Below are positions 3,218-44,602 of a stretch of 64,000 nucleotides of DNA, piece by piece. The notes under the pieces were generated by a model. That model was not told the origin of the DNA. It ran no database searches and saw only the letters and a program-made list of their open reading frames with translations. This stretch comes from Pezizomycotina sp. ARF18 (taxonomy: Eukaryota; Ascomycota): the NCBI GenBank assembly GCA_002224055.1, contig AZLU01000028.1:226425-290424 (forward strand). Reading direction: 5' to 3'. Each line of letters opens with the position of its first letter. The stretch's first letter is position 1. Made by a program: the position numbers and the translations under genes.

Positions 3218-4441
3218 TCACTTCATTGAGGCGGCGGCGAGGTAAGAGCTTATGGCGGCAAGACCGGGGACCATTGAGGAGAAACTAGTGAACGCGCTGA
3301 GACCGGAGAATGGGGTTGGGCGACGGGGAATGTACGGCGGTGAAACAGGTCCTCCAGCACCCTGAGATTCCGGAGGTCTAGGACTATACATGGCAACGTA
3401 GGACTGATAGGGGGTGGTGTTGGCGCGTAAGGTGGAGGAGACGGCGGCGACCAGAACCGAGGACCATCTGAGCCTCCGTGTCCGAGCAGACCAGAAGATC
3501 CAATATGTAGTGGCGAAAAAACGGGGTCCCGAGGATAGTTGAGCTGCTCTGGCCAATTCGAATATGCATTCACCATATATCAAGTCGAGAAGATGTTTTC
3601 ACGCTTAGAAAGCACTCGAGGTCCGCGTCGAATTGGTTATCGGGAAGTCCATTCCATATTACCAATTCTTGTATTTGTTTGAAGAGAGGTGTTTCCGTCC
3701 GAGGTAAGGTCGGTTGCCATTCTTTAAATTGAGAGGCGCTCTTGTGGAAGTATTCATATCGGCTATAACGAGCTGGACTATCCGTTGATGGTATCCCTTG
3801 AAGGGAGGGGTCCGTTAGGTACCGAGTAAATCTGTCTAGGTATTTGCCGCACTAGATATCGACCCGAAATGTTGTGATGTTTGAAAGATAATTTTTTTAC
3901 CCGTTCGTCGAGTGGAGAAATAAGAACGCTAGGGCTCGCAGGTACCGATCCTGCCTTGAAAGAAAAGCTCTTTATCTCGGTCAAGCCTGGAAGGGTTGCA
4001 GAGAACCTCTATGACCTTGAGCTGAGGCCCGATATTCTAGATGAAAGGTATCGCAGCGTCGAGAAATTTCATAGCATGTCCCGCTATTTTATGCTCGTTA
4101 TCCCAAGGACGGTCGTCCGGACGAAAGCAATTTACATCAAACGAGACGTGAAAACTAGATGCTCTCTACGCTTTAGGGGTACAGGCTGGGGAGGTCCGCA
4201 TGTTTGATAATGTCGCTTTTAGCTTCAACTCGACCGCAGTATTGCTCCTCAAACTCAACACAGCCGGAACAGTTTCGCTTAGATCATGACACACTCGACG
4301 GAGTGGTAACAAGAAATGAAGCCCATCTTGTTTGAGATACGAGAAAATCTTGATAAATGTATAACAATTGTGAAATATAGCAATTGCAATTCTTACCTCG
4401 ATATAAAGCTCGGTTGGCAGACCGAGCAGTGCTACGGCCAT
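3218..4441 (-). CDS. F-box-like array member A, with Pro/Ser/Tyr-rich tail
   Basis: Exon 1 (4441-4397) encodes MAVALLGLPTELYIE. A 48-nt intron (4396-4349, GTAAGA...AG) follows in phase 0, and exon 2 opens with IFSYLKQDGLHFLLPLRRVC, an F-box-like pattern (LPxEL...LxxLRRVC). Further on the family core shows ASQFKEWQPTLPRTETPLF and KQIQELVIWNGLPD (about 3640-3740), equal to the 'W..W...P.F.QI.SL' block of its neighbours. The C-terminus is rich in Pro, Ser and Tyr: FWSPPSPPPYAPTPPPISPT, then AMYSPRPPES and VSPPYIPRRPTP, with SPQWSP in an alternative frame. Several frame shifts lie between blocks, and the exact end (3218 or about 3250) depends on them. It is divergent from gene B, which starts about 400 bp away on the other strand. 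If a true F-box, it would bind Skp1 in an SCF ubiquitin ligase; this is inference. Confidence 0.6.
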
Positions 4442-4854
4442 TTTCAAAAGTATTGATCGTAAAAGGCAACGCCTTCAAAACGCGTGAAGACAGACTTGGG
4501 GATTTATTTACAAACTTTTCTTCTTAGTATACTAGAAAAGTGGCCAAGAATGAAATCTCCACATGAATTCATCGCCATAGCTCTAACTCTAGCAGGTTAG
4601 CCTTATACTATTTTCAATTGCCCCCGCTTCAGTCAATATCATCCCTAACTGAAGATTTTTGTGCTTGAGCTGGAGTTTCTCGGCTGTGTAATTCGCAAAG
4701 TCGGCACCTTCCTAGCCTCAGTCAATCCATCCACAGTCCCGTTTATAAATCATAACATGCGCCATACCACGACTCAGCGCATTTTACATCAGCAGCAATT
4801 CTTATTCCAAGTGATCATAGAACGGTGTCTTCCACTGGCCATTTAGAGTAAACC

Positions 4855-5989
4855 ATGGGTATCCTGGATCTTCCCAGCGAGATCTTTGTCGAGGTTAGTT
4901 CCCTGAGCGATGAAATTATTGAGTTACCTTTCGAATACACCACTATTATGAATCTGGCGAGAGGTTTTCTAGATCTTCGACTACCTGAACCCGGGCGGGA
5001 TAATAGAGATGACAAGTGCGGCTTACAATTCTTTCTCGCTGTTCGGCGGACAAGCAAACGAGTGAATGATGAGGTCTGTAAATTTCTTCGAGGTCAGGTT
5101 AGAATTCGCATCGGCGGAGACACTGTCGCTGGCTTAGCCGGAATGAGGGAGTTCCTAGACTCCGGCTGAGCGGCGTGGAAATCCTCTTTCACTACGATCG
5201 CTTTTGATGCCGATATCCTACATGCGAAGCCGGTGAGAGAACGATTCGACCATCGTACTGTACACATGAGGATTACAGGCACCCGCTCGGACTTGAGTCG
5301 GTGGGAGAAAGCGCCGGCGCTCACAGCCTCGAGTTTTTGCTTGCCTCCATAAAATTTATAGAGACACTAGGGCTACAGATTACTTGCCTTAACCTAGTCT
5401 CGCGAGAGGAACATTTCTAAGACGAGGAAATGCAGGGCTCCTACTATCAGCAAGATCAGTTTTTCCGATCTATAGCTATCCTGCTACTTCACGCGACGCG
5501 GAATAAGATGCTACCGAAGGTCAAGACGTTACGTATGGCCATCAACTCGGGGCACTCGCTGGACCGCCTTATTTTGAACACTGTCGATGAGGAGACTGCC
5601 TCTATCATAGCAGAGGGCAAGATCGGGATAGTATTCCACATTACTTCAAGCAGGAAGATTTCGATTTTGATGAGCGTATGTTGGTTCCTGGCGGGAATGA
5701 CAAGGAGGGGCCAACTGAGGAGTCTGAGTACCCGGCGCCTATGCCATTCTTCGAGCAGATTCGCTCACCCTAAATCTATACTGTTAAATCTGATTTCCAT
5801 GATATCTGGGAGTGGAAATTCACGGATCTTGTAAAACGAGGAAGGGGAGACGATCTACATGTGTGCCTATCGCAAGAGAGATTTCCTATATGTGGAGTGA
5901 ATGAGGTCCCGAAAGGACCCAACTTCTCGTTCAGGGAATATTTTACGCATATTGAGGAATTATTTCCGGTAGAATACGATTCTGACTAG
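4855..5989 (+). pseudogene. F-box-like array member B, with nonsense codons
   Basis: Exon 1 (4855-4893) encodes MGILDLPSEIFVE; intron 4894-4972 (79 nt, GTTAGT...TAG) in phase 0; exon 2 begins IFDYLNPG. Core blocks match the paralogues: FLAVRRTSKRVNDEVCKFLR, GQVRIRIGGD, WKSSFTTIAFDADIL, FIETLGLQITCLNLV, FFRSIAILLLHA with PKVKTLRM, and PHYFKQEDFDFDER. At least three single-base frame shifts are present. There are also three in-frame stops, each one C-to-T change from a sense codon: TGA at 5167-5169, TAA in TTC-TAA-GAC (about 5420) and TAA in CCC-TAA-ATC (about 5770). The final stop is TAG at 5987-5989. No CTD-like or Cys-rich tail. Probably not functional. Confidence 0.6.
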
Positions 5990-6458
5990 GTGCTCACCGC
6001 GATATTCAAGTTGTTTGAATTCAAAATACACCATAACTTTGTTACTTGCGCTTCAGATGTACAATTATTATTAAGCTTCCAAAATGGCCGTATTAGATAC
6101 GCATGCTGATTCAATTGCTATGGAGTAATTTTGATTCCTCGAGGTTATTATCACTTTGGGTCGCCTTGGAGGCTGCTGAGCGCCTTTGCCATAACCCCGC
6201 AATTGTAAACGTGGCGGAGTGATGATATTCAGCTGAAAATGCGAAATATTGGAGCATCAGCTCTCACCTACAGAACGTTAACAGGCGTGCGTCATAGTGT
6301 CCTTAAAGTCATATTTATATATTCGCGTGCTCATGTGCTATCCTGAAGAAATTGGTCATGACTAGACACAGAACATGTACTACAAAGCGTTGTTATGTTT
6401 CGCAATTAAAAAACCGAGCTTGAACTTGAGGGAGCTCCTTTCGCCACGATCAACTGCT
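5990..6458. other. Spacer between array members B and C
   Basis: AT-rich spacer with no coding signal seen. It should hold the promoter of member C. Confidence 0.4.
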
Positions 6459-7689
6459 ATGATGGATTTTCCGGTCGAGATATTCTTCGAGGTTTGTTTC
6501 ATTATCAGCGATGGTACGATTCTATAGCTAATATAAATGGCGAAACTGCTATTAGATCCTAAGTCAATTCGACCTCAGCCACCCAGATCTCCAAGCACTT
6601 TTGGCACTCCGTCAAACCTCCAAGCGTCTTCACGATGTTATTTGTATTTTTCTTCGAGGGCGGATCAGGCTGCGCGTCGGCGGGTCTATCGTCAAGGCCC
6701 TTGCTACCATGCGAGACTTCCAGAAGTCCGATTCAGAGATGTGGAAATCTACTTTCACTACGGTCGCCTTTGATGCATACGTCCTAGATACTGAACGCAA
6801 AACAAGAGCAATCCGCACTTTTACGATCGTGAGCCAAACGAATCAGCGGTCGGCGAGAACGGCTTTAACTTCCTGCTTGAGGGCATAACATTCGTCGAAG
6901 CCGTGGGCCCGCAGCTCACCTGCGTCGATATCATATCCCCCGTACAATACGGCGGATTCTTCCGGCAGGACAGGTTCTTCAGGTCCATGTCGTTATTGCT
7001 ACTACATGCGAATCACGATGGAAAAAACTTCATGCCAAAGGTGAAGACGCTGCGAATGCTCATAGAGACCGGCCACTTCCTCGACACGTTTACGCATTAT
7101 ACGGTAGACGAAAAAACTCGCATTGCCATGGAGAAGCGCAAGGCTGTCGGCTGGAGGAGCGTACCGTCTTACTTCACCATGGATATGAGCCGGTTCGTGT
7201 CCTGGAAAGCATCCCAAGATTGGCCGAATTGGCCCAACAGGGGCGTCTGGCCTGAAGCCATGCCGTTCCTAAAACAGATTAAGTCCTTGCAGATCGTCAA
7301 TAAGGACTATAACCACGACACCCAGCTGAGAAATTTTATCGACTTTGTCGATCGCGGGAGAGGTATTCACGTTTCGCTATCCACGATAGTTTTCCGCGCC
7401 ACCTTGCGGATAAGGTTCCCGAGAAGGATAGATTCTCGCTTGAATGGAAAACATGTTACGCTCAGAACGGCGTCAAGTGTGACTATTGTCAGGCGCGGGC
7501 GAAGGGCCAGACTACTTCAGGTTCGAGGTGTAGTTGTAGTTACAGGGACACCAACGTGTCATATTTGAACTCGCCACCGCCGAAGAGAAAGTAAGTCTTA
7601 GTTGTGATTATTTTTTGAGTTCTATCTTGCTCTTGTTACTGAGATCTAACATCGATCGCAGGGACAACCATGATCGGTACAGATACTAA
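6459..7689 (+). CDS. F-box-like array member C, with Cys-rich C-terminal module
   Basis: Three exons. Exon 1 (6459-6491) encodes MMDFPVEIFFE; intron 6492-6555 (64 nt, branch-like CTAAT); exon 2 begins ILSQFDLSHPDLQALLALRQ and SKRLHDVICIFLRGRIRLRV (F-box-like plus the family LRG block). Then come WKSTFTTVAFDAYVLD, FVEAVGPQLTCVDIIS, FFRSMSLLLLHA with PKVKTLRMLIETG, YFTMDMSRFVSWKASQDW and PFLKQIKSLQIVN. The C-terminus has six cysteines: TCYAQNGVKCDYCQAR, then SRCSCSYRDTN (about 7460-7555), spacing C-x7-C-x2-C-x11-C-x-C around the core, suggestive of metal binding. A last intron (7591-7661, GTAAGT...GCAG) leads to KDNHDRYRY and stop at 7687-7689. Only two single-base shifts (about 6815 and about 7385), the second a CCC-to-CC contraction. 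No stop-gains seen, so it may be intact in reality. Confidence 0.65.
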
Positions 7690-8238
7690 GCTAATTCTAT
7701 AGGCAAACCTCGCCGCGGGCTGTACGGTATGTTGCTTGATCGCTCACGTTGCCGGATGAGTATGAAATACTGGACATGGAAATACTTGACCCTGCTAGTA
7801 TGGCCAATCTAACACGCTTTTTATATTACTATATATATATAGATGTACGAGTAGTTTAGTTGAATCATCCTTTTTCCTCATGATTAAGTACCTATGCCTA
7901 CTACAAAAGAAAAACCTGATACATACGTGACAAATACCAGAGATACTAGAGACTACTAATACGAATGAAGCTTGATACAAGTCAAGGGATATAAATTTAA
8001 TCTGAAAGAACACGATTGAACAGAGAACATCCCAAAGTGTAGAAATAAATTCATTAAGATCATTCCCTCTTCCTCTTTTCACCGCGGACATTGCTCCTCG
8101 CATGCGATTTTATGAACATGTCCGCCTGAGCATGACTCAGTCCACAGCACACCTTTCCCATAGTAATCTCTGCACAGTCGTTCATGTTCATATAGAACAA
8201 GCACGACCTCTGCGGCGTAAACGAACATAACGGTAATG
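7690..8238. other. Convergent spacer between members C and D
   Basis: AT-rich 3' spacer where genes C (+) and D (-) converge. A TA-rich stretch lies at about 7826-7845. No gene seen. Confidence 0.4.
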
Positions 8239-9773
8239 TCAGAACATACGGCGATGGGCTAAAGCTGACTGAAGTGTAGAAGGGGAAGTCGGAGAATATC
8301 GGGGAGAAGTCGGAGAGTACTGAGGGGAGCTTACGACATACCGGCGAGACAACCTCGTTGGAACGAACGTCGGTGAAGAAGGGGTGTAATTAGGCGACGT
8401 GGGTGCTGGCAGAGGAGTGGAAGGCGTATAACGAGGTGATATCGGAGAGAATCGAGGATACGAAGGAGATATCGCATCGCCCCATCCGGAATTAAAACTA
8501 GAAACATGGCACTCCCCGCAATAAGGATCATGTGCGCCGGAATAAGAATTGTGTGCAGGGAAAGTAGCGATCCAGGAGGAGCGACCCCACGGTGTAATCG
8601 GGCTATAAACCGCGACGTCGGGTAATAGCCATGCTGTGGCCTGAAAAATGCAGGCACAGGAAGAATTGTAAAGCCAGCCGGTTCTCTTTTAGGCGCAGGA
8701 GGTTCGGCGTAACCTGCAGGGTCGCAGGCCCAGAATGAACCATAGCAGCCGGGCCGACCGCAATTGACGACGGGATCTCTCCAGTTGGTCCATTCTCCAC
8801 AGGTGCGGCTTAGGCACTGTGCGTCGGGATTTACAGTTTCTACGGAGCACACGAAAGCATCTACTTGACTTTCGAGGTACTGATCGTCTGGCCGACGGAC
8901 CCTAAGGCTTCTAATTTGCCTAAACAAAGGTATCAGTCCAAGCGGTGGCCAGTCGTAGGCGCCTCTCCAGGTTTCAAAACCAATGCTGTCCAATTTGAAA
9001 TACGATGGAGTCGGCCACCCGTAAACATTACGATAGCTCATCGCCATGGCGATGCTTGGATCAACGACAGGTTTGCTGAGGCGGTCTAGATACTGGATAT
9101 TACCGGCCCAGACCTCTAGCGACAGCGTGTCCACGTTCACAAGATAGTTCTTCTTAGGTTGCGAGGCATGTAATAAGAGCATTGCAATAGCTCAGTAGAA
9201 CCTATCGTGGTCGCTCCTGATACTTGGTGAATCGTAAGCGCTAGGGCGAATCTCCAGACGGCTTATGTGGGGCCAATTCTTTCGATGAAGTCCATCGCAT
9301 CAAGTAAGAAATCGAGGTAGTTGCGACCGGGGTCGCTCTTTGGTGGGAGCGTCAGTTCGCCCGTGCACTCTTGTCGCTCCTCCATCACGTTACTCTTGAA
9401 TACGACGGTTGCAAAGCACGAGGACCAGGCCGCAAAGTAGGGGGTGGATTTCGCGGTAGTAAACGATCGCATGCGGGAGATGCCATCAGCGAATTCGTCG
9501 TAGACAACGAATTTGAGTTTACCGCGAAGAAGATACGTAACGACATTCCTTATGGCGTCGCACGTCTGGCGGAAACGGAGGACAGTCTCGAGATCGCGTT
9601 TGTTCTCGAGATCAAATTCGCTCAGTATCTAAGGGTAGAAAATTCTCACGTTAACACACATTGCTGTTCCATAGTGCCATATAGCCGCACCGGCGGTGTA
9701 TCTCCATAGGCAATATTGATGACAATACCTCAGCAAACAGCTCACAAGGGAGCGCCAGAATTCCGGCCTTCAT
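8239..9773 (-). pseudogene. F-box-like array member D, with RNA polymerase II CTD-like heptad tail
   Basis: Exon 1 (9773-9729) encodes MKAGILALPCELFAE; intron 9728-9629 (100 nt) in phase 0; exon 2 begins ILSEFDLENKRDLETVLRFR, then TYLLRGKLKFVVYDE. Core blocks: DFLLDAMDFIERIGP, AIAMLLLHASQPKKNYLVNV, YGWPTPSYFKLDSIGFETWR, and PLFRQIRSLRVRRPDDQYLE. A Cys-rich stretch follows (CLSRTCGEWTNWRDP, NCGRPGCYGSFWAC). The tail, read in one frame from about 8545 to the stop at 8239, is a run of heptad-like units: FSPISPR, YTPSTPL, PAPTSPN, YTPSSPT, FVPTRLS, and then YSPTSPR and YSPTSPS, the last matching the Pol II CTD consensus. Upstream, YYPTSRF and YSPITPW extend it across a one-base shift. Frame shifts occur near 9265 (CCCC to CCC) and 8610. 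One in-frame TGA at about 9193 replaces an expected Arg (CGA to TGA). Classed as a pseudogene because of that stop, with modest certainty. Confidence 0.6.
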
Positions 9774-10237
9774 GGTGTTGTTCGTTTAGTACTCAGACGA
9801 CTCTTATAAGGACCTTCTGGGGTGACGCTGAAATCAGAATCAGACACTTGATCACAATTTGTCTATTTCCACGCCTACTCCTAATCTACTAAAAATCACT
9901 CTGATACAGTACGGGTATGTTCTTTTGGAGCAAAACTACGGCCTATTGCTTTTACACTCTGCACTCTGCCAGCAATTATGGAGAGCAAGAATATTTTCAA
10001 GCGATGGAGAAAAAAGAGAATCAAGGGAATCGATGGTCTATATATAAACTACACCACGTGATGAGCCATGGGAGCAAGACTCATAAAGGGGCTGAGCCAA
10101 CGGCTGAATCAGCGAGGACTCGGCGCTGCTAAATTCGGTTACCGAATCTCGACCTGCGTTCACTAATCAAGTTCCAAGCCTGAGCGAATACGCACAACCA
10201 CAAAGCGCGGCCGTTATCTCGTCCTACAGATATATTC
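9774..10237. other. Spacer between members D and E
   Basis: No supported gene. It lies between the 5' end of D and the 3' end of E, both on the minus strand. Confidence 0.4.
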
Positions 10238-11892
10238 TCAAGTGTCTTGATGTACGATCTCCTGTATCATATCGTCATCTCTCCAGATAATCCGCCGATA
10301 TAGGTCAGGAATAGCGAAGTCTTTCAAACGCGCGGTCTTCGAAACCTCATTTTCATATTTATCCAAGAACGCGAGCCACGGTTCATAGCCTAGACCCGCT
10401 TCGGCTCTCCTAGAGGTATAGGATTTTTTCAACTGCATAAATGCCCTCATATCATATTTGAACGGCGTTACAATGGGCCTAAGATACGGCGCGTCAGGTA
10501 TTATACTCCCGCCGGTATTCCTACCGTACCTCATGATCCACTTTTGTGCCATAAGGTCCGAGTCCTCGCTTCTGTAACTGAGATATTCGATCCGGAGGCG
10601 TGTTAACCGGGCGCGGCTGCCAATAGACCGTCGAGAAACTCCTCAATAACTCCTTTAGTATCTTCTTCTATGTTGCCCACAATTCCCAAGTCAATGTTAG
10701 TTCGAAAAACACGACTTGGCAATCAAATCAGCTCGAGGGAGGTTGAAGTCTGACGGAAACCTCCCAGGAGCGTATTGTTCATGTACTCTCCCTCGAACGG
10801 TGCTCGAATCATCTTGAAAGATTCCAGCGCCGGAAGTAGAATCCGCCTTTTCTCCGTCTTACTATACTTATCGTGTATCGCGTCATACTTAAATTCCCTG
10901 AGCTGTGGCATCAGTTGGGCGGTTCATGTATTTGCGATTTCAATTGGGTAAACCTGGCTTCCGTCCACCCGAGGTTCGAATTTGTTCCGAATTCGAAGGC
11001 GCGTATTTGGGAGAAAAGCGGAACCAGCTTCGTCTTCGGGTACTGATTCCAGATTTCAACGAGATAGAATTTGAGCCTTCCCCATTTCTAGAAGATAGGA
11101 CGGGATAATGCACTGGCTCTTGAAACCAGCTGGAGATCTTTCCCGGCACTTTTGGCGGCGAATGCCATTGCACATTTCCTCCATCCGAGCAAATAGGGTC
11201 TCGTCTAACACACAGCCTTCGAAGTACTTGACATGGTGGCGTGTGTCGTATGCCATCCTGACGATCTCCACGTTTGGAAATGCTCTCTCTCCGGCATGGA
11301 GTAAGACTAGTGCTACTGCTCTATGAAACATTTCCTGGGCCATAGCGCCGAATGGATACTCTGCCGACTGCGATACGATTTTTATCGTTGGATCAGAGGA
11401 CCGAACTCGCGTATGAATGGCGTAACTGTCAATATAAACGCAAGTGCTGGGGCGAGAGGTATTCCTTGATCCGGACCGATACTTTGTCTTCTATAGGCTA
11501 GCGGTAAGGGTTCAAGTGTCGCTTGCGGCATAGATAGTACAGTCAAAAGCCAGGCTGTCGAATCAGTTTATAAAATGATTCACATTCCGATGGGATCTCT
11601 GATGAAAGGCGCGCGTGCGTTTCTCCCGATCCCACTCGTGAACCGAGCGGCCGGTGTAAAAGGTTAGTTTACCACGAATATTGGGCGTGATAACGTCGCG
11701 AAATAACTGAGAAGCCGCTTGTGAATTAAGTAAACTTTGCAAGTCGCTGGAATCTTTCAGATCGAACTTCGAGGGGACCAGAGAGATTCGTTAGTTGAGT
11801 GATATGACGGACTTGGACACGCAGTTTCTGCTCATCATTGGGTAACATTTGAGGTATACCTCTTCAACCAGTTCATTTGGTAACTCCTCTAT
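10238..11892 (-). pseudogene. F-box-like array member E, start codon lost, LRR-like C-terminus
   Basis: Exon 1 ends in EELPNELVEE followed by GTATAC. The codon where ATG is expected reads ATA (11892-11890), one G-to-A change. Exon 2 gives FDLKDSSDLQSLLNSQAA, then FRDVITPNIRGKLTFYTGRS, LAFILTVTPFIREFGPL, MFHRAVALVLLHAGERAFPN and VEIVRMAYDTRHHVKYFEG. The C-terminal half matches member F and not C or D: LREFKYDAIHDKYSKTEKRR with LLPALESFKMIRAPFEG and SLELI (LRR-like), then a terminal domain with YLRPIVTPFKYDMRAFMQLK and GYEPWLAFLDKYENEVSKTA. Stop at 10238-10240. Several frame shifts are present. It pairs with F as a second sub-type of the array. Confidence 0.55.
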
Positions 11893-12582
11893 ATTTTTCT
11901 AACTATCTATAAAGGACCGGCAAGAAACCGAATATCAAACGCTAGGCGCCAGACGTCCTTTTCCGCCTCGGATATATTTTCGTTGATATATTCTAGGATC
12001 GTGGTGAGTTAGCAAGAATGCATGCAGCCTTGCTACATATTTTCTTTCCTCTTTGTTTTTAAAGCCTCGTGGATGAGTCGAGCGGGTAGACCTGCATAGT
12101 TTTCAACTGACAGCCATTCCCAGCTATAGCTAATGGTTAACAATATTAACGAGATCCCCTACGGAAGAAGCCACGCTTATTCCTATAACTACGGCCTATA
12201 CAAGAGTTAGTTATGACGGCGTTTACGATAGATTATCCAGTACGTAAAGAAAAGTCGTTGTCTAGTTTCAAACCCGACAGCACCACGGGCGGTAAGCCGC
12301 TTCGACGATCTGTTGTGCAACGGATGTCTTCCCATCAATGATCTCATATCAAACCCCTGACTATTCAATCGGTCGAGGGCAGAATTTCTGGGCACGAGGC
12401 ACAGTTATTCTGCCAAATTCAATAAGCGAGATACTGAAGGATTTCAGTTCCGAGAAGGGACACGCCGAATAATTATTATAAAGGCGAAGGATCGCTACAC
12501 GAAAGTCGTAAGTTCAGTATTTTGCAAATTGTTCGCTCGCTACAGGCCAGTAGTCCACAAAGGCCTTCTTTCAACCCAAAAA
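11893..12582. other. Divergent spacer between members E and F
   Basis: No confident gene. It should contain the divergent promoters of E (-) and F (+). Confidence 0.4.
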
Positions 12583-14307
12583 ATGGCATTACTATCTGCT
12601 TTGCCGGAGGAGCTTCTACGTGAGGTAAGTTACAACATCCACTATTCTAATAAAGAATACTTTGTCAACTCGAAGTTTTTTTTTCTGCTAGATCTTCGGT
12701 TGTTTCAATGTAAATGAAGATGGCCTCAAATCGCTCCTGAATTTGAGGGGAAGCTGCGCACGGCTCTGTTATACCATAAATGACTACCTCCGCGGCCGAT
12801 TGACAATCAAGATCGGTCGCTCATTGGAGAGTAGCCAGAGGAAGATGCGGTCTTGTATCCAAAAGACTTTAAGTGCCCCGTTTGAGGCTTATTACTCTTG
12901 CCTCAGCTTGCACTCTGGCTCCTTCAAGCCTGAAATTCCGGGAGCTGAGTACGATCCCGGATTTAATATGGATCGCAAGGTGATGGAGTTCTTGCAGAGC
13001 GCGGTTCCAATGTACAAAAAATTGGGCACCGTATAACAACAATGGAGGTTGTCATACTAGACAGTAGCTTTTATTGCCCCAAGACTCGACCTATTCTACT
13101 GCACGGTTGCACTGCTGCTGGTCCGGGATAACATGCCGAATCTCAAAACTTTACGCATGCATCTCGACGCTCCCTGCGGATACCTTTCCAGGATTGTCGA
13201 TTGTGTACGTGATAACAATACGAGGGCCTATGGAAAGGGATTTTTGCCACGTCTCTCAAGAATAGCATTTGAGATGCGCTTTAATAAAGTTCCAAAATAT
13301 CTCGTTCGGAATAGGCTGCTAGGGGATGACGACGGTCATTACGATATGAACCTTCTGGACCATTGGACCAACTGGGACAAATGGCCGTTGCGAGCTCACA
13401 TTCCTGTGCTCTCTCGACTCGAGGCTATACATCTCTCTGGCGATCGGTGGACGAGAAGTGGTACGGCGGAAGCATTTTTTCACCTCGCTACCTTGCGCTT
13501 GACTCTTTCGCCAAAGCCCTCCCTAAGGTCAAGCTTTTCACGTACGACGGAAATAATTCGAAGACGAAGTTGCAAGCGGCAACGGTTTCCTTCACAGCCT
13601 TGGAAACCTTTCGCATGCAAAACTGCTGCGGCACGTACGCGGTACCGCTCCTAAAATGCCTCCTTACATCGTGGACTAGCACCCTAAAGCGACTAGAACT
13701 GGTCGATATCCAATTCTACCTCAGCGATGATTCAAGTTCTCCGCCACCACGTATCAGCATGATAAACTTCCCCGGGCAGTCACCCACCGAGGGGTTTCTA
13801 CCTAACCCGTCTTACAACGCAGACTTCAAGCCTGACGGCATCGCTCGCCTGTTCGACGGCTGTTAGGGACCTTTAAGAACCTAGAATCGATTAGAGTGGA
13901 ATGCCTGAGCTATACAGTCTGGCACTGGGATACACTGTCATGTGGCACGGAATACACAGGGAATCTTGCCGGCAGCTAAAAAGGTCCGCGGCAGCAGATA
14001 CCCTAGGCCGCTTCTAGTACCGTTTCGAAACGGCGACGTGGCAGCCTTCAGACGGCTGCGAGATGGCCTAGCGGCGCGAAGAGTCGACAGGGGACTGAGC
14101 AGCGATTCATGGCTAAATTTTCTCTTCGAATACGAGTATGATATTTTCAGGAGAGTCACGTATGATGAGATGTATGGCCCAGCCATGATCCCCCAGCGGC
14201 GAACAGGATCGCCAGGAGTTGCACCCTTTCCAGATCCTAATGTTAGGGCTGCAAATGAATACTTGAGCTTTAGTCCAATCTTTCGCGTGATGCCTAGCTG
14301 TTATTAG
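12583..14307 (+). CDS. F-box-like array member F, LRR-like C-terminus
   Basis: Exon 1 (12583-12624) encodes MALLSALPEELLRE; intron 12625-12691 (67 nt, GTAAGT...CTAG) in phase 0; exon 2 starts IFGCFNVNEDGLKSLLNLRG and then NDYLRGRLTIKIGRS. Core blocks: DLFYCTVALLLVRDNMPNLK, TLRMHLDAPCGYLSRIVDCV, VPKYLVRNRLLGDD, HWTNWDKWPLRAHIPVLSRL. The C-terminal half carries YLALDSFAKALPKVKLFTYD, FTALETFRMQNCCGTYAVPL and STLKRLELVDIQFYLSDDSS (LRR-like), ending with a domain shared with E: YPRPLLVPFRNGDVAAFRRL and SSDSWLNFLFEYEYDIFRR. About four single-base frame shifts. No stop-gain was seen away from shifts, so this is one of the better-preserved members. Length about 520 aa when joined. Confidence 0.65.
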
Positions 14308-15076: not shown

Positions 15077-16895
15077 CTATGGTGAAGGCTGCGGTCGCAT
15101 TTCGTAGTTCTCGCCGCCTATTCCGCGGACCTTTAGCGTCGAGGAAATCTTCGGTTTTGCTTTCGGAGGCATCCTGAGGACATGCTTGTGCCTATGCGCG
15201 TCGTCATCGGGTTCATCCTCTTCGCGTATCCGCTCCCTGCTCCTCCAGTCCGACCGAACCCCACTACCGCCGAATGTCAGATTTCCGAACTCTTCCTTCT
15301 TCTTCCGCTGTTCCTCTTTCGCCGCCGTAAAGCCAGCGCTGCCACCGCCGCGGATCCACTTCCTCCAACCTGAAAATTCCGCAGATCTCCTACTGCTCTT
15401 ATTCCTCTCCGAAGACTTCCTTCCGGCTTCGAACGAGCTGCTCGCTGAACTAGATGCGTTATTCGAATTGTTCCTAGAACTCGAGCTCGAGGTCCGACTC
15501 ATGCTAACCACGCTAGTGCTGTCGCCGACTGCACTGACAGCTGCGCTCACGAGCGGTGAGTAATTCGAGCTCACGCTCGATCGCATCACTGCAGGAGGCA
15601 TACTCGCGATCGGCCTCGCGGATCCCCTCGGCGATAACCCGCCGTAGCTATCCGCCATCTCCACCTCAATATCCACGCCAGTTAACGCCGCGCTCTGACC
15701 ATCCGTGCCGGTCATCTGTATGTAACTCGAACCGCCCGTAACCGTCAAACTCCTCCCCGTTCTATCCACGTGGCTCCCGCCCATCGTCGTCCCGCTCGCT
15801 ATCGTCGCGATCGCGATCGTCGCTTCTATATCGCCTTCCTTACTCTTCCCTTTTATCTTCATCTTGCTACCGCGGCTCTTACTCCGGCTCCGGCTCCTGC
15901 TCTTGAACGAGGGTAGCGAAGGCAGCGACGGCCAAGTCCGGCGGGAACGGCGCGAGGTAGGCGTTCCGTGGTGACTTCCCGATGCCGCCGACGAACCGCG
16001 TGCGCGTCGGTGGCGTACAGCAGGTACTTGAGCGGCGGACAGCACGCTACGATTACGGCGACGCCCATCTCGGCAGACGACCACGCTGCTATGAGCGACG
16101 ATGTCGAGGAGCGACCCACGGAGACGATGCGAGCGACGGTACATATTATGCAGAGGAGCCCGAGGGAGAAGACGACGGATATGCCTGCCAGTTTCCGGCG
16201 GGAGGAATTGGTGGTGAGTTTCGGAAGGAGGAAGAAGGGTAGTGCGAAAACTATAGAGTTATATATCATGTTATTCAATGAACTAGCATTACGGGAGGAT
16301 CAGAAAATTCATGGTGCCATCACGTACTCATGAGATCGCTGAGGATGTTGAAGCCGGAGGAGAAGAAGTAAGGCGTAAGGGAGGCATATGAGAGGCACCG
16401 CTCTTCGGGGATTATAGACCTGCAAGGACATTCAGTTAGCGGACCTCATACATGTCGAATGAAGAGAACGGAGATAAATTGGAAGAGACGATAGTAGGGA
16501 AACTAACCAATTGCGCTGCACTGGCACACACCAGAGGAAGTTGAGACCAAGGACGAGAACGAGGCCGACCGCAACGAACCCGATTGTCATCATCAAAGCG
16601 ATCCTTAGCTTGACAAAATCCTTGGGGAACATTTTCAGGTACATGATCAAGATTGCCGCCTTGATCTCCGTACAGAACAGCATAGTATACCGGTATCGTG
16701 CCATACGAAAACTAGAAGGAGACGCCAATTCAAGATTAGCAAACCAATGATAACCGTGTCCTGAAATAGGAACTGAGAACGGAATTCTGCCAGATCCGAT
16801 CCTTCGGCCAACAAAACACCAAAAGCATCATCATGAGACCGGAATCACTTCGGCCGACAGGGATCTCAAATCCCTCTTTCTCGATTCTCTCCAGC

Positions 16896-16928
<33 letters not shown>

Positions 16929-17291
16929 CAGTTCTTTTTCCAGAAGGCTTTAAATCCTCCTTCCTTAATCCCTGACGATGAGATTTTTCAAGACAAAAAT
17001 AGACCGCCTCATCTGAACTCCATTTCCTCACCTTGAGTGCTTTCTGTAGAGTAGCCCTGTCATGTATGACCTTCTCGAAATCGGCAAACCATGCGTCGTG
17101 TATTTTATCTTTGGATTCCATAAACCGAACTTCACTGAGAATGTATCGCATATGACGTTCGCGAGCATGAATATCCAGGCGAACGTTATAAGGATGTCGG
17201 ATGTAGCGAACTGTCGTAGTAGATGCGCGCGGACGTACCAGTATAGGAGAAGAAAGATGAACGCGACGGACAGACATACCACCTCGACGAC
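15077..17291 (-). CDS. Fungal rhodopsin-like 7TM protein with long Ser-rich tail
   Basis: Fungal rhodopsin-like (PF20684-type) membrane protein. Exons resolved from splice signals: 17291-17032, 16711-16508, 16419-16328, 16250-15077, with GT-AG introns of about 320, 88 and 77 nt. The junctions restore frame (for example TG|G at 16508/16419 gives Trp). Helices in order: VVCLSVAFIFLLLYWYVRAH, LITFAWIFMLANVICDTFSV, MLFCTEIKAAILIMYLKMFP, IALMMTIGFVAVGLVLVLGL, SYASLTPYFFSGFNILSDLM, IFALPFFLLPKL, ISVVFSLGLLCIICTVARIV, and WSSAEMGVAVIVACCPPLKY. The family's 'FxC.PV' appears as LWCVPVQRNW. The cytoplasmic tail of about 300 aa is Ser/Arg-rich (SRNNSNNASSSASSSFEAG) and ends YEMRPQPSP. One frame shift near 17090 and one near 16005. 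Exon 1 upstream of 17291 was not pinned down. The largest intron holds a T29 run. Confidence 0.75.
16900..16928. repeat. Poly-T tract of 29 nt in an intron
   Basis: Uninterrupted T run inside the first resolved intron of the rhodopsin-like gene; on the coding strand it is A29. Tract length is likely unreliable in assembly. Confidence 0.9.
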
Positions 17292-20200
17292 CTGTTGTGA
17301 AACATTGTCAGCAAAGACCGAGAAACATGCATGATCCGCGTAGTTAGCGAGTAAACATCCGATCCATAATAGCAAACAAGCATTTAATAAATAATATAAA
17401 CGAAAATCACCGCTGCATTATTCATTTACCGTGATCCACTTACAATAGCGCCCCGAGGTGATAGGTCGGACAACATCGTGTGTATTGGTGGGAGAAAAGG
17501 GGGAAGAAGTTTCGAAAGATCGAAAATGAGGAGATGAAAAAGAATAAAAAAGTTAAAATTTTCTCATCGTAATTGGCGGCGCAGTAGACTGTATTAAAGA
17601 GAGATCTGAGTTTACGAGACGAGAGAGGCAAATGAGGAAAACACCAGGAGAACCGAATAAGTCCCACGCCTTTCTTGCCTTAACTCCATGGATTTTCAGA
17701 TCAGAACACGGAACCCCCCCTTCCGTGTATCCCTGTTGCATCTACCTATACACCTTCTTAATATCAATATGAACGAGAAAAGGAATAGAACCTTCTTCAG
17801 ACTTCGCAACTGTGAATAAAAGTCCCTAACCCAGGCTTGCTAGGTTTCTTGCCCTGTTCTGCAAGACGTTCAAAAAGAAAAAAAACTTGCTCGTTCGTTC
17901 CTTCTCAAATCTTTCCCCTTCCTTCAAAAATGAAAGACCCACAGGTACGGTCTGACAGGGTTGCTATTGTCTCTGAATTGCCCAAAACTGGGTGGTGGCA
18001 CTGGCGGGTATCAACCATCAAGTGGAAATGTTCCTCTGAAGAAAAAAAAAAAAAAAAGAGGTGTGTGGAAAACCCCAAAGCACGGCTCGCTCAGTTTCTG
18101 GTGTGCGAATGAGGAAGCCGCTGCGATCCCATCTCGTTTGCTAATCGATGCTATTGGTCATTAAAACTGATGAAGGCGAGCATTCGGCGCAAGATTACAC
18201 TAAAAAAAATACACTAAGGCACGAAAGAGGATTAGGCTAGTCACGGGCTGAGAGGATGCCGGGTTTTCAAGAACAAAAATCTTCAAGCCCGCCGATTGAT
18301 CAGTGATGAACCTGGGCTCGGGTGACTTCCTGCTGAGGGATCGACTGTCGCTATTGAAATGGGCACATAGGGTAATTCAAACAATCTATGAGCACGCGTT
18401 ATTAATCAATTTTTGAATCAGACTAGCCAAATACACTTAAAAACCTGCAGCTCGAACCCCGGTATTTTTTGCCCAGTTCCTGGAGAAAAAGGCGCAACTA
18501 AGTTTTTGAAAAGCGTGTTTTCTTTCAAGGGAAAGAATACTATAAACAGTCTGAAACTGAAGAGGCGCACGGCACAATAACAGAAGATAGCCTCATCCAT
18601 TCATCGAAAGGATAACTCCGCAGAATATTTGTCTTCGAGAAGCCTTCGATCACCATCTCTAATTTGATAAAAAAAATTAGATAAAAGAGGGGCGATTGTG
18701 TGTCCATCAAACCTAATATCGGAGCCACGCTGTAGCCTAATATTCCTCCGCGTTAATGTAACTGTTGGTGATGTACCATTATATGTAAATCACGGTCCAA
18801 TCGATGATTTCAGTGGCTCATTGTCCAAGCCGCGATGGATCACGTTTGCAAAAGGTAAAACAAGCATCGGTCAGTTACCCAGGAGAGGGCTCCGACAATC
18901 TATGCAGATTGTCTTGTATTACTGATACTTCTATAGAACGGACTGAAAAAGAGAAACAAAAAGGACAGAATGAAAGAAATAAGAAAGGTATCCCCTGAAA
19001 TAGGTTGCTATCTGGTCCCAGTGAGCCTTTGAAGGTGGCTAGGTTTATCCGGTTATTGCTAATTGCGAAGCTGATATAGTATCGTATCTAACCCTTCTCT
19101 TATAGTAGTGTTTACGAGGCGGCCCATTTTATTTCTGAAAGGTGGAGAAACGCAAGGGGGAGATACATCATGATATAATCTGTGTAACTCTGAAATATCG
19201 AAGTATTGTTAAGCGTTCGATCTCACACATTACGAGAACAATCATCGTTTACGTCGCGGACTGTATGATGTCAAATCGGTGATCAAAGTCTTTGGAGAAA
19301 AGAATTCTGAGGCCGCGGAGGTCAACACGAATGGGATGTTTTGATGGATTTCGCACGCTGCTTTCAGTTGCGGAAACCGTTTTTTCGCGGGAATTCCACG
19401 ACGGGGAATTCCACGATGAACGAACGAATTGCGAGCTTTTGAAAATTAGGTAATTATTAGCTAACTACTCGAAATCCACCTTCAATCCCACGAGGCAGTG
19501 TTTTGCAAGGGAAACAGGAAGCTAAAGGAAGGGATCCCTGCTTCCGCGCAAAAGCCAGCAGTGGCAACTTGGCAGAGGCGTTCATTCTTTATGAACACGG
19601 CAAAAAAGAATCGTTTCAGTCCGCATACCTTCGGATTTTAGACGACGAAAGACGTTCTAGAAAGGAAGGAATTCATTACTGAGATATAAAAGGTGACAAG
19701 GGCTCTGAATCTTACCCTTTTTAAAATGATGTAATTCCAATTAGGGATCATAAAAATTACAAGGGATAAGGGCGATTTCTGGGGGTGACAGTAACTGCGA
19801 CGGCGTCTTCTTTTTACCCAGGCTATAGCCGGGATATCCGTGTAAGTGGCAGTTTGGTCTCCGAGACCGCACTTTCATCGTAAAAGTGTAAGTGCCAGCA
19901 AATTTACAACATATTCATGAAGCAGTAAGCTCAAGAGTTTCTCCTAGCTGTCAATATGAGGATGTGTAATTGGGCGGGCTAGGTAACTCGACTTACGCGA
20001 GAATAAAGTTTTGTTCCTGCTCGCGTAAGAGCGAAGAAACAATCAATATTACTGTCCTCTAACCGCACCTTTGCTTTCCATGAAACTGCCGACCGAGGTT
20101 TAGATTCTTCAAATTGGCGATTTCGCATCCAGGATTCCCGCCACTGGAAAAAAGAATGTTAAATCTAGCACTTAACATGCATGAAACAGAACAGTTATTC

Positions 20201-37539: not shown

Positions 37540-38168
37540 GAGCAGTGCCGGGGCAAAACGAAGGAGGAAGTTCGAGTCATGTATAGTGTAAAGATTGGTG
37601 TAACCTTGAAGGGAGTCGGCAAGCCGGTATAAGTAATATTCCTGCTGGCGGGAAATTCAGACGTCGTTGTCGGAGCACCACGCTCTGTGTGTATATAAAC
37701 CCTGGGTATCCCCCTCCTTCATCCTCACTGAAGCATCCTAGCATCCATAATCATCACTATCTACTATAGCGCCCCTACAGTCTTATCAAAAAGTCTCGAA
37801 AGTACTTTCCTTCGGAACTACTCAGTAGAGTTAATGAAACCAAGAAAAAATCAATCAAGATCCGTCGTGGCCTGTGGCCCGTTATATCTTCAGGACTCGC
37901 TGCATCATTTTCAACATGCATTCAATTCACAATAGCTGTATCAGAAGAGCGAACTGGGCTGAATGAACTCCAAATTAAGCACGTAGGGGAGTATTTATAT
38001 ACTATAGTAGCCACGGAAGTAGCAGGTTTGATTGCGATCTCGGGAACCCTATGAGGCTTTTAGCCTACTAGTTGGTACTTGAAAGCCAGCTTTGCCTTTC
38101 GGTTTCAAGCCGCGATCTCACAGTCGTTAACAACAAGCTATCGTGACACGACTCCCGCAACAAATGTC
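37540..38168. other. Spacer between rhodopsin-like gene and Copia element
   Basis: No gene seen. Ordinary base composition up to the sharp change to AT-rich RIP sequence inside the LTR. Confidence 0.4.
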
Positions 38169-38173
38169 ACGTA

Positions 38174-38408
38174 TGTTGGATGGCAATTGTGATAACTGCC
38201 CGCAGCGGATATCTCTACCGTCCCTACCGTGTGCGGGATATCTCTGCCGTACGCGGCACGGCTCGTACGAGCTTAGGATATAATTATGAATATCGATATT
38301 ATTAATTTATCTAGATATTATTTATATATTTAAGTAGGTAGATCTGCCTTTAATAGATATAATTTTATTTATATATAATTTAATAAGTTTATAAACTATT
38401 ATTCTATA
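38174..38408 (+). repeat. 5' LTR of the Copia element
   Basis: 235 bp starting TGTTGGATGG. It keeps more of its original CpA/TpG sites at the left end (TGTTGGATGGCAATTGTG) than the 3' LTR, which reads TATTAAATAATAATTATA at the same positions. RIP has therefore hit the two LTR copies unequally. Confidence 0.85.
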
Positions 38409-41400
38409 TAATAGTAATAACTATATCTATATAGTACGTATATATAGATATCTCTACTCGCGCTATCTCGAGCCGCTATCCTAGATTTAAGATAATAGCG
38501 CCGTAACGTTCGTAACGCCTATTATTCTTAAAATATAACCCCGTTTTTATCGCGCTATCTATCTCGCTACCTATCGCGTTACCGTAAGCTATTACGAGTA
38601 CGTCCGCCTATAGTAGAATAAATAACTATTATATTCCTAAAATACGAAGATTATAAAGCCATATCGCGCCTACTAATACCTATAATAAATTATATTATAT
38701 AGCGCCGAGTATATCTAAGCTATCTAATATTATCTAATAGACTATCCGCTATAACCCGCTTTCTCTACTTAAGTAAAGTACCGATTAGCTACTCTAAAAG
38801 CGCTATATACTTATAAAGTTATAAATACTATAACTTATTAATACTATTAAAAAATCTAAAAAACTAGAGAAAAAAGCTTAATAATATAGAATAAACTTAA
38901 TATAACGTAATAATCGTCTTAATTATTACCGCCGTAAAAATTAAATAGATTTATTACTTTAATACCGACGAATATAATATATAGGCTATTTAAAAGCTTT
39001 TAAAAATATTAACTTTATTTATAATAAGGCGAACCGATAAATCTTAGAGCTATAGCTATTAAATATATATTAAAAAAAAGATACTATATATATATATTAA
39101 TCGAGTAAAGAGCTAGTAAGCTAAGCTAAAATCGCTTAATATAAAACTACGCGATAATTAGCTTATTAAGAATATTCTTAAAAAATTACTAAAAGAATAT
39201 AATAATATAATATCTTTAATAATATCGCTAATAGTAGCTAAAGGCGTTATAATTAATCTTAAATAGATATTAAATCTACTTAGTTAAGAGAAGGTATATA
39301 AAAAAGTATAGAAACTTATATATAATAAAAATAATACCGAGTTAGGCCGCGCTAGTAAAAAAGATAAAAATAACGATAATATTACCTATTTAGTAACTAG
39401 AATAGGTACTAAAAAAAATAGTAATAATATAAATAGCGCTAGTTTTAGTAGTAATAAAATATAAGGTAGAACGCCTTAAAATAAAAATTAAATACCCGTA
39501 AAAGTCGCAGACGAGATTATAAAGATTATAGAGCCCGTAGAGTATATAATATCGCGCCCGTATAAAATATACTAATATAAATAGTATAGTATTAGATATA
39601 TAGAGATAATAGGTATATATAATATATATATTCTTAAATATTTAATTTAATAATTAATACTAGTAATAAATAAGAATTTTATATAAAATTTAATTATAGA
39701 GATAGCGCCGGTTAATAGTACTACTTAGATAATAGTAAATAATTTCTAACCGCGCTAGCTCGATACTAGCCGCCGTTATAAGTAGTAAATTAGATAATAT
39801 TACGTTAATAATAGAATATAAAGAAGATAAAGAATAAACCTAGATCGCTATAAAAGATAATAAAAAAATAATAATTCTACTTTATAGAATTATAAAGTAT
39901 ATCGCGCTAGCGTAAATATTAGGCGCTAGTATACTAATAATGCTAATAATAATTATATTATAAGATAATAAAATAATCTAGTAGATATAGTATAGCTTAT
40001 ACTACTACGGTATATACGCGTAGATAATAATTATATTATCTAAGCTATTTATATAGGTAATACCCGTCTTAGCTTAAACGTTAATAATAAGCGCCGAGTT
40101 ATTATAATAATAGGTATATATTATTATAAAAAATTTAAATAAGTAAAGTTACTTTTAGTCGCCTAGTTAGTTAAGCGAAGACTTACGTTTAAGCTTTTAA
40201 AGTAAAATTTTTAACGTTTTACTATTATAAAATAGAAAGAATTATAATATAGGTATCTAAATAAAAAAAATATTTCTAATAGCTATATAGAATAGTACCG
40301 AACTAGCTTATAGCGTAGTAAATACTACTAGTTATAAATATAAACTTAAACCTAGCTTAATATATATCGAGCGAACGTTATCGCGAGGATAAAATATATA
40401 GCGTAAAAATAATATTAAGTATTTAGTTATCTAAATAAAATTAACCTACGTCGCCTACTATAAGATATAGGTATAATAATTAAGAAAGAAACGTATATAT
40501 AGCGTCCTTACGATATATATAATAGAAAAATATATACCGCTAGGGGCTCGAGCCCTAATAACTTGAGAAACTACGCCTCTACGTAAGATCTATATAGATA
40601 TATAGATAGTACTAAGAAAATAGTAGAGTTTAGATAATAATATAGGATTTTAAAGAATTATAGACGACGTGACCCGCTATAGTAAGGTATTATTTAATAA
40701 TAAGAAGACTAATTATAAAATTATAGATAAATAAATCTATATAAAAATAATAAAATATACCGCTTAATAGGCCGACTTAAAAGGCCTTAAATTAATATTG
40801 CTATATCTAATTTTTATCGTCCGCTATAATAGTAGCGGCAAATATAGTAAATAGTTAAATAATAGTAAATTTAAAAATATATTAAATTTATACGGTATTA
40901 AGTAATAACGATACGTATTAAATAATTATAGGTAAAATAGTATAATAAAATAGTTTTTACTAGCTATTATAAATAAATATAAATAATATTATATAACGTA
41001 GATCTACCTTTCTATTTATAGGAGAAAAATACTAAATATAATTATAAATTAAGAAATATATCGTCTACTAAGATATTACGCGATATACGCCTTATAAGGC
41101 GTACTACGATAGTAAGCCCGATATTAGCGTAGTATATTTATTTAGAACTAAGATATAGGTAAAAGATTACCGCTCTACTAATAAACTAGTACTATAAGTT
41201 TAGCGAGGAAAATATATAAGATATAAAGATAGCGGTAAGATTATATAAGCGTATAACTTAACTCGGCGTAAGGTATTTTATACTTTATATTTTATAATAG
41301 TACTAATATTAAAAGTACTACTATAGATTAAGTACGGCGACGCTATATTTATAGTATAGAGTAACTATTTAATTTTTATTAACGCGGTAATACTTATAGC

Positions 41401-41754
41401 TTATAATAAAGAATAAAATACTATAAATCTTAATATTATTAGCTATACCCGCGCTATATATTTTTCTAAGAAATATAGTAGTAGACCGCTATAAGAAAAG
41501 AATTACTATCGCTTAAAAAGTATAGCGTCTAGAAACTAGTACGTATTAACTCGAGTAAACGTAGATAATAGCATAAATAGTATCTACTATTACTTAAATA
41601 GATACTACGTTATAAATAAAATACCTAAAATAAAATTATACGCTATAAGATAAGATTAGTAGTATTAAGCTATCTTTAATAATATTAAAACGACGATATA
41701 TATTTACTAGTTATTAAATACTCTATAGTTTAATTATTTTAGCTATAGCCGTCG

Positions 41755-43238
41755 TAGTGTTTACTGTTAGGTCGGGTTTCGGCCCGACCCGATTGACCCG
41801 ACCCTATAATAGGCGGGCCACTGACGTTATGGCTCGGCCCGAGTCGGTTTTTAGACGGGCTAAGGGCCTTATAACCCGATAAATATCTTAGTAAAACCTA
41901 AAAAATTTAGTTTTTAGCGCTTAATGAGGCTAAATTATATTAAAAAAAGAAATTTATTAGTCTATATCTAAATTCCTACTAAATAAACCGCTAAAAACGC
42001 TATAAAATCTAATTATTAATAGCCGTCTAATAATAATCTCTATAGCTCTAACTTAATCTTTCTAAGTTCCTCTTATTATTACTATACTCCTCTTAAACCT
42101 ACCTCTTACGGACTTTAAAATTCCTAAAAAAAATAGGTTAATATAGAAAAAGGAACTATAAAGATTTCTTCTTTATCTATCCTATATAGATCTTAATTAT
42201 AAAGAGAGAGGTCCTAATTATAAAAGAGAGGTCTTAATTATAAAGAGAGAGGCCTTTAAACTTAAAGAATTTTATAAAGTCTAATTTTTTTAGATAGGAA
42301 ATAGGTAGAAAATAGCTTAGGGAGCTCTTAGAGTAGTTATTAGTAATATTTTTAAACCTTAATCGACTATAGCGAGAAAAAAAATTTTAATTTTTTTAAC
42401 TTTAATATTTTATTATTTGTTTAGACGTTTATAAGCTAAATCTTACCTAAAATTAATAAATATTATCTAAAAGAAAAGTAAAGTTTAAAATCTAAAAGAA
42501 AAAATCCTTTTCTCTCTATTTCTTTTTTATAATTTTTAACTCTATCGATCTATTTATTAGGTAGGCGCGCTAGCGACTAGTAATACGACCATTACTAGCT
42601 ATAGATTACCCCTCTAATTTTCTACCTATTTTCTATCTAAAAAGATTAGACTTTATAAAATTTTTAAAGTTTAAAGCTTCTTTTTTTATAATTAAGATCT
42701 TTCTTTTATAATTAAGACCCTTTCTTTATAACTAAGATCTTCTTATATAAAGAAGGTTAGCCTTTCTTTATGTCCTTTGTACTCTTAACTCTATATAATA
42801 TTTTTATTAAATCTTATTATTTTCGCTATTTTTACCTATATTTTTAATATTTTTTTATATTTTAGGGTTTCTTAAGAGCTAAGTTTAATAGGAGTATAGT
42901 ATTAATAAGAGAGATTTAGATTGTCTAAGTAAAGACTATAAAGATTACTTAGTAAATACTATAATACTATTGAGATTCTATAAGAAGATACTTAAAATTT
43001 AGTAATTTGTTAGGACTAGACTAATAAAATATTAAAAAAAATATAAAACTAATAAAAATATAAAAAAAAATATTAGTATCTTGGTATTATGTTATACTAT
43101 TTTTAGAAATTTAGTGACCCGATTAACCCGCCCGACCGCCCGCTGGGTCGGGCCGGGTTAGTAGTAGCGACCCGACGGGGCAGCATGGGCGGGTCAATAC
43201 CCCCTCGGGTCGGCCCGACCCACCGATGTCAAACACTA
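41755..43238. mobile_element. Non-autonomous hAT-like DNA transposon, copy 1 (nested)
   Basis: 1484 bp with perfect 8-bp terminal inverted repeats TAGTGTTT/AAACACTA (fits the hAT YARNG terminus). An 8-bp target duplication AGCCGTCG lies at 41747-41754 and 43239-43246. Both ends carry about 120 bp of GC-rich subterminal repeats built on GGTCGGG/CCCGACC, including the hairpin GTCGGGTTTCGGCCCGAC. The interior is very AT-rich with no open frame. Inserted in the pol region of the Copia element. Confidence 0.85.
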
Positions 43239-44602
43239 AGCCGTCGTATTAGACCTCGAGGTATAATAAGGAGATATTACCGCTATATTTCTAGGAGGAA
43301 AATTAATACTAGAATAATAAGTTAATATCTTAGCTCTAAAAGGATATAGCTTACGTTAATCCGATATATAGTAAAAAAAATTACTAATACTTCGTCTTAT
43401 TAAGTTAATATAGATTATATATCTCGCTATTTATCTAGAATAGTAAACTTTATATAAAACTTATTAAAATAGGCCTTTACCGTTCCGTATACGATATAAA
43501 ATATATTATAGATTAAAAAAGGCCGACGCGATAGATATCGGCGTATATATTTTTATATTTATTAATAATCTACTTATTATTAAAAGCGCGGCCTTAGTTA
43601 TAAAGATTAAGAAGGAATTACTAGCTCGCTTAAATATTAAGTATTTTAATAATATAGCGTACTTTCTAAGCGCTTAAATTAAGAGAAATCGGCGCGATAG
43701 GACGATATTTCTATTATAATAAGTATATATTAATTAGCTATTTAAACGCTACAGTATAAGAGCGTACGTAACTATATCTACCTTTATAGTATAATATTCT
43801 ACGCTATATCGTCCTAACGCTAATCGCGTTATATAATAAAAAAGTATCGTAGTTAGCTTAGAGATATATAATATCTAGCTATTTAGATACGCTTTAATCT
43901 AGTATTTACTTAATTAAAATTAGCGACGTTTACTAGCTACCTAGATACGCTATAATATATCGCTATATAACGTTTACTACGCTATCTATAAGGTACGCGG
44001 AACTATAGGCTATAATTTACCTTAAGCTAAACTAAAGAAAGTAAGCCCTAGCTATAAGGGTACGTCAATAGCGACTATATATATACTAAAATCGCTACTT
44101 ATTAGTAGATATTATTTTATATATAAAGCCGCTATATTATTTATATCTCGTAAATAAACTATCGTTATAATTTTAATAATAGAAGCGAAATATATAGCGC
44201 TAAGTGTAGCGACTTAGGAAGCTATATAGCTAGAAAGAATACTATAATTAAGTATATTTATTAAAAGGTAGGAAGGCTTAATACGTAATAGTAGAAATAA
44301 AGATATTAGACTAATTCTTATTACGTTTAAAATTAATAATTTAGGCGCGTATTTTTTCGCTATTAACGCGGCTCGTAATATTAATAATAAATAAAGTATA
44401 TTAATATTAAATATTATTTTATTTGATAAAGATTAGGGATAATAAGATTAAGTTAATATAAGTTATATCGGTAGATAACGTTACCGATATATTTATTAAA
44501 CTATTAGCGGCGCTAGTATTTATAAGACTTAGGTAAATATTAGGAGTATACTCTATCCTAAAATAAATTAGAAAGACTCGGCCTATAGCGGGTAAGGGAG
44601 GT

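Follow-up and report, generated by a model that had tools for sequence, protein, structure and literature searches.

A run of heptads similar to the CTD of Rpb1 is present in the window, by which we mean the whole 64 kb stretch of DNA analyzed here, and an F-box-like gene, D, lies directly upstream of it. Gene D belongs to a cluster of six F-box-like genes (positions 3221-14307) that lie on both strands and form two subfamilies, one with Z, A, B and D and the other with C and E. In D, A, B, E and Z, a three-frame reading places a probable intron at the same site inside the F-box motif. The parts of gene D and of the stretch that follows are given below, together with the tblastn comparisons of gene D with its paralogues within the 64 kb window.

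9773-8239, minus strand: gene D, a member of the F-box-like family
9729-9773, minus strand: exon 1 of gene D (MKAGILALPCELFAE), with the first part of the F-box-like motif in the three-frame reading
9629-9728, minus strand: probable intron (GT...AG) inside the F-box motif, from three-frame views and a reading of the sequence alone
9268-9628, minus strand: exon 2 of gene D in its first frame, with the remaining F-box and the region after it (tblastn E = 6.9e-12 with B and 2.0e-6 with A)
9192-9268, minus strand: disrupted stretch, with a frame change near 9268 and an in-frame TGA at 9194-9192
8628-9191, minus strand: core of gene D in a second frame (tblastn E = 2.3e-14 with B and 1.8e-10 with Z)
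8587-8627, minus strand: YYPTSRF/YSPITPW junction, where heptads abut across the second frame change
8239-8688, minus strand: tail ORF of 149 codons (149 amino acids; first Met at residue 148; PF05001 E = 9.8e-5)
8278-8472, minus strand: CTD-like heptad block of nine units (PF05001 E = 1.6e-6 for 8242-8475)

The preliminary description took the host gene to be F-box-like, and this is supported. The motif is found at the N-terminus across the probable intron, and spliced paralogue B passes the Pfam F-box profile PF00646 (22.8 bits against a cut-off of 20.5), but the spliced N-terminus of gene D itself falls below that cut-off (14.7 bits, E = 0.031); member E, at 17.7 bits, is also under it. Like the F-box proteins of SCF ligases (PF00646, PF12937), gene D has an N-terminal LPxEL-like motif across the probable intron, as A, B, E and Z also do in our reading; it differs in that it stays under the Pfam cut-off and that its core (8689-9191) has no relative in Pfam, nor in PDB at E up to 10. 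None of the three stretches in viral contigs that match patterns of the D core encodes a relative of it. A single-sequence AlphaFold2 model of 8689-9191 had a mean pLDDT of 31.4 and was discarded.

Elsewhere in the window, a fungal rhodopsin-domain gene at about 15080-17420 on the minus strand (PF20684, E = 1e-17) appears to be split between frames without clear introns, which hints at assembly indel errors or a decayed region. A match to PF24476 (DUF7580, E = 2.1e-8) lies at 52200-55908 on the minus strand. Two AT-rich blocks, 38000-44000 (GC 0.27) and 60000-64000 (GC 0.21), are very strongly marked by a RIP-type dinucleotide bias (TpA/ApT 1.46 and 1.48; second index 0.14 and 0.13), and RIP-marked blocks of this kind are typical of filamentous ascomycetes.

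The six heptads first noticed, FSPISPR to YSPTSPS, are all found in one minus-strand frame, and three weaker units absent from the preliminary description (ISPSYPR, FVPTRLS and YVVSSPQ) lie in register with them. The nine units are listed in block order with their identity to YSPTSPS, followed by the two heptads upstream.

8472-8452, minus strand: ISPSYPR, tail frame, weaker unit, 3 of 7
8451-8431, minus strand: FSPISPR, tail frame, 4 of 7
8430-8410, minus strand: YTPSTPL, tail frame, 3 of 7
8409-8389, minus strand: PAPTSPN, tail frame, 4 of 7
8388-8368, minus strand: YTPSSPT, tail frame, 4 of 7
8367-8347, minus strand: FVPTRLS, tail frame, weaker unit, 3 of 7
8340-8320, minus strand: YVVSSPQ, tail frame, weaker unit, 3 of 7
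8319-8299, minus strand: YSPTSPR, tail frame, 6 of 7
8298-8278, minus strand: YSPTSPS, tail frame, last unit and exact canonical heptad, 7 of 7
8607-8587, minus strand: YSPITPW, tail frame, upstream of the block
8627-8607, minus strand: YYPTSRF, core frame of gene D

The block comprises 65 residues and has a single two-residue slip (RR), between FVPTRLS and YVVSSPQ. Pro is found at position 3 in eight of the nine units and at position 6 also in eight, position 1 is Tyr in five units and Phe in two more, and position 7 is Arg in three. Residue self-identity in the heptad tail peaks at lag 7 (22/72) and lag 14 (18/65), and the tail ORF contains 15 S/T-P sites. The tail ORF also bears a second 21-bp tandem pair (8516-8556, minus strand), NSYSGAH / DPYCGEC, which is heptad-sized and not CTD-like.

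Against PF05001 (RNA_pol_Rpb1_R), the whole tail ORF scores 22.9 bits and the stretch 8242-8475 scores 28.5 bits, both above the Pfam cut-off of 20.3; no other polymerase family was found in Pfam scans of the gene D pieces. With E up to 1, PDB yields 22 matches: 21 bear the name of an RNA polymerase subunit, RPB1 or a CTD peptide, and the remaining one is an aminotransferase (E = 0.95). The whole-sequence E-values of the PDB matches (down to 4.4e-28) are inflated by the repeats, and the best single stretch among the three alignments listed has an independent E of 5.6e-6. Among 31 stretches in viral contigs that match the tail patterns, one encodes a relative of the tail, an Rpb1 of giant-virus type (so labelled from its sequence; L001, 831-5333), whose CTD repeats read YSPTSPC and YSPTSPR. 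The tail and the Rpb1 CTD (PF05001) have in common C-terminal tandem heptads of the YSPTSPS type, one of them canonical in gene D. They differ in that the Rpb1 CTD sits on the largest subunit of RNA polymerase II, whereas the tail follows an F-box-like gene, and in that the tail has nine mostly degenerate units whereas yeast Rpb1 has 26 (excerpt of PMC6548728).

Simple Pro/Ser low complexity had been named as the main alternative to a CTD-like array, and the chance and shuffle controls, together with the PF05001 and PDB matches, support the CTD-like array. A six-frame scan of the 64 kb window yields six occurrences of the strict motif [YF][ST]P.[ST]P, every one inside the ORF 8239-8688; outside gene D the window has no strict heptad. 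In first-order Markov simulations (n = 60, 37 kb) the strict motif appears 0.28 times on average and at most twice, against the six observed in bases 1-37000. When the last 79 residues were shuffled 100,000 times, no shuffle reached the five strict units present. Aligned with an ideal heptad repeat, the block of 65 residues reaches a score of 199 (shuffles: mean 75, maximum 118, n = 2,000). The heptad-register score was compared across the 483 stop-to-stop ORFs with 50 codons or more: the tail ORF has 23/25, and the runner-up score of 11 is shared by four ORFs, including one that lies in paralogue Z. With Pro held fixed and the other residues shuffled, none of 20,000 shuffles matches the count of Tyr or Phe at position 1 (7/9), a test that is partly circular in that the unit starts were picked with the motif in view. 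The register is explained neither by chance nor by plain Pro/Ser composition.

The tail ORF cannot start alone at an ATG, because its first Met is residue 148. The proposed upstream extension of the heptads by YYPTSRF and YSPITPW across a one-base shift is indeed there, in different frames, with starts 20 nt apart and hence one base short of a 21-nt heptad. Given the lack of a usable ATG in the tail ORF and the heptads that abut one base short, it is probable that the tail is part of the upstream gene D. The junction supports the view that core and tail were once one reading frame. Splicing from the core frame to the tail frame was considered as well, with introns of 40-200 nt, donors at 8600-9000 and acceptors at 8560-8700: there are 16 phase-compatible donor-acceptor pairs, none with a branch-site pattern, and this route was rejected.

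A working protein, as the preliminary description supposed, is not supported by gene D, which in the three-frame reading has two frame changes (near 9268 and within 8627-8587) and one in-frame TGA (9194-9192). The D copy in this assembly is either decaying or mis-sequenced. The frame changes could stem from single-base assembly errors, but the in-frame stops, for which indel-type sequencing errors alone do not account, point to a degree of real decay.

The tail ORF is stop-free over 149 codons. Among eight units, differences at codon positions 1, 2 and 3 number 79, 74 and 144, a contrast reached by 20 of 20,000 column permutations; such an excess at third positions is expected for a once-translated frame under coding constraint, although the test is partly circular in that the choice of most units followed the amino-acid motif. 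Between the last two units there are three silent differences, and their first six residues are unchanged. However, synonymous codon choice gives no support to translation of the tail frame: over 118 codons its usage is at background level (1,664 of 5,000 null draws reach its score), and a sliding view also places it low. All five held-out coding pieces of the cluster beat the background (reached in 86, 0, 1, 110 and 120 of 5,000 draws), as do the other two frames of 8242-8607 on the minus strand (20 and 0 of 5,000), though both of these hold stops. These scores come from a small training set of 593 codons, and the repeats do not count as independent. For this failure of codon usage, we marked down the main reading given below and marked up the readings in which the tail is untranslated or a relic.

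The three paralogues of the same subfamily are as follows, with stops and frame changes as read in three-frame views.

3221-4441, minus strand: paralogue Z, with an F-box-like start, a D-related core and a Pro/Ser/Tyr-rich end that lacks CTD heptads; interrupted by several stops and frame changes
4855-5989, plus strand: paralogue A, in which no CTD-like tail is seen; interrupted by in-frame stops and by frame changes
6459-7594, plus strand: paralogue B, with the core closest to D, ending in ...SPPPKRK and lacking the tail; interrupted by frame changes

Members C and E of the second subfamily are also split between frames. That the heptad register is kept in the family is not upheld by the paralogues: no PF05001 match was found in the scanned ends of Z (three frames), B (two of three frames) and A (one of three). 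The end of Z bears some similarity to the tail of D, with an alignment score of 68 against 44 +/- 8 in shuffles (reached by 2 of 500), a modest result taken as the best of nine frame pairs; the stretches that immediately precede the tails of D and Z were compared in nine frame pairs too, and the best of these does no better than 12 of 500.

We consider it most plausible, with a probability of about 0.5, that the heptads represent the S/T-P-rich tail of a locally duplicated, fast-evolving F-box-like family, a tail that has become CTD-like in one member. The feature is real and unusual in form, and its owner is probably an F-box-like gene, one whose reading frame is broken in this assembly. Repeated 21-bp units would have extended the tail to nine heptads similar to the Pol II CTD; the tail is probably disordered, and core and tail would form one protein. 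If a complete product exists, its N-terminal F-box may bind Skp1 in a putative SCF function and the D core may select the target. On the evidence of the sequence and of general knowledge, the 15 S/T-P sites could serve as a multisite substrate for proline-directed kinases, and the phosphorylated tail could then be read by WW/Pin1-type phospho-S/T-P binders and possibly by CTD-binding domains.

The strongest competitor, which we regard as a real but doubtful possibility, is that the gene cluster has died or is on its way to doing so, the heptads being the low-complexity remains of a non-functional relic with no present role. The frame changes of D, A, B and Z are consistent with it, as are the in-frame stops, which D, A and Z carry and which indel-type sequencing errors alone leave unexplained, and so are the absence of the tail from A and B, the lack of heptads in the tail of Z and the background-level codon usage of the tail frame. 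However, the 149 stop-free codons and the three silent differences between the last two units, whose first six residues are the same, speak against a relic, and the split state of the neighboring rhodopsin-type gene fits assembly error. Moreover, RIP as a cause of decay was rejected, because the array is not strongly marked: TpA/ApT is 0.76-0.85 in its six members, unlike the 1.46 and 1.48 of the AT-rich blocks.

A real mimic of the CTD seems unlikely. Through its heptads, the F-box-like protein would dock onto CTD kinases, CTD-binding domains or the Ess1/Pin1 isomerase and so couple transcription or RNA processing to a ligase of the SCF type. We think it similarly improbable that an F-box-type adaptor carries a Pol II CTD of its own, with kinases and readers of the CTD acting on the adaptor or being recruited to the SCF ligase for ubiquitination. 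The two tandem near-canonical heptads, the final one exactly YSPTSPS, speak for mimicry, and gene D thereby has one good di-heptad, di-heptads with spacers being described as the minimal functional CTD units in yeast (excerpt of PMC6548728). E3 ligases acting at the CTD also exist, among them Asr1 of yeast, which ties ubiquitin ligation to the Pol II CTD; Asr1, however, binds the phosphorylated CTD, whereas the tail of gene D itself carries CTD-like heptads (excerpt of PMC12270679). Against mimicry, the register is missing from the scanned paralogue ends, seven of the nine units match YSPTSPS at just 3 or 4 of 7 positions, and gene D is broken in this assembly. If true, such a mimic would be a natural example outside RNA polymerase, in a fungus.

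It is very improbable that the heptads are an out-of-frame reading, untranslated in the tail frame. The core frame runs open to 8331 without ever entering the tail frame, and codon usage scores higher in the other frames than in the tail frame, which is at background level. Nevertheless, chance is excluded by the motif, Markov and register controls, both other frames contain stops within 8607-8242, the core-frame extension (8690-8331) has no Pfam match at E up to 10, and the third codon positions of the units vary most. We give the least credence to capture, in which recombination would have fused part of the fungus's own RPB1 to the F-box-like gene. The strong similarity to Rpb1 CTDs, that of the giant virus included, speaks for capture; the degenerate units, with Arg at position 7 in three of nine, speak against it, and so does the Pro/Ser/Tyr-rich end of Z, a hint that the tail grew in place.

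Both kinds of sequence, F-box proteins and the CTDs of Rpb1, are well known. An F-box protein with a CTD-type tail is not found among the matches listed from the open-licence literature, as covered by titles and the starts of abstracts. PF05001 matches are reported to be frequent in fungal low-complexity proteins, with a figure of 1,964 LCR-containing proteins with PF05001 and 183 fungal proteomes named (excerpt of PMC11878562). If 1,964 is a count of proteins, most of them are not Rpb1 and PF05001 is common outside Rpb1, although repeats may have been counted within proteins. The term F-box protein has no occurrence in the main text of that article. In Moniliophthora roreri, an Rpb1 C-terminal-repeat-containing protein is among the genes singled out in comparison with other basidiomycetes (excerpt of PMC3948071).

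For fungal annotation, the locus is a warning that a PF05001 match does not equal Rpb1. CTD-like heptads outside Rpb1 would mean that the CTD code is open to borrowing; if carried by a ligase adaptor, they would be a direct link from transcription-coupled kinases to protein turnover. Even without such a role, the tail next to gene D is a clear example of an S/T-P-rich tail arriving at the CTD consensus.
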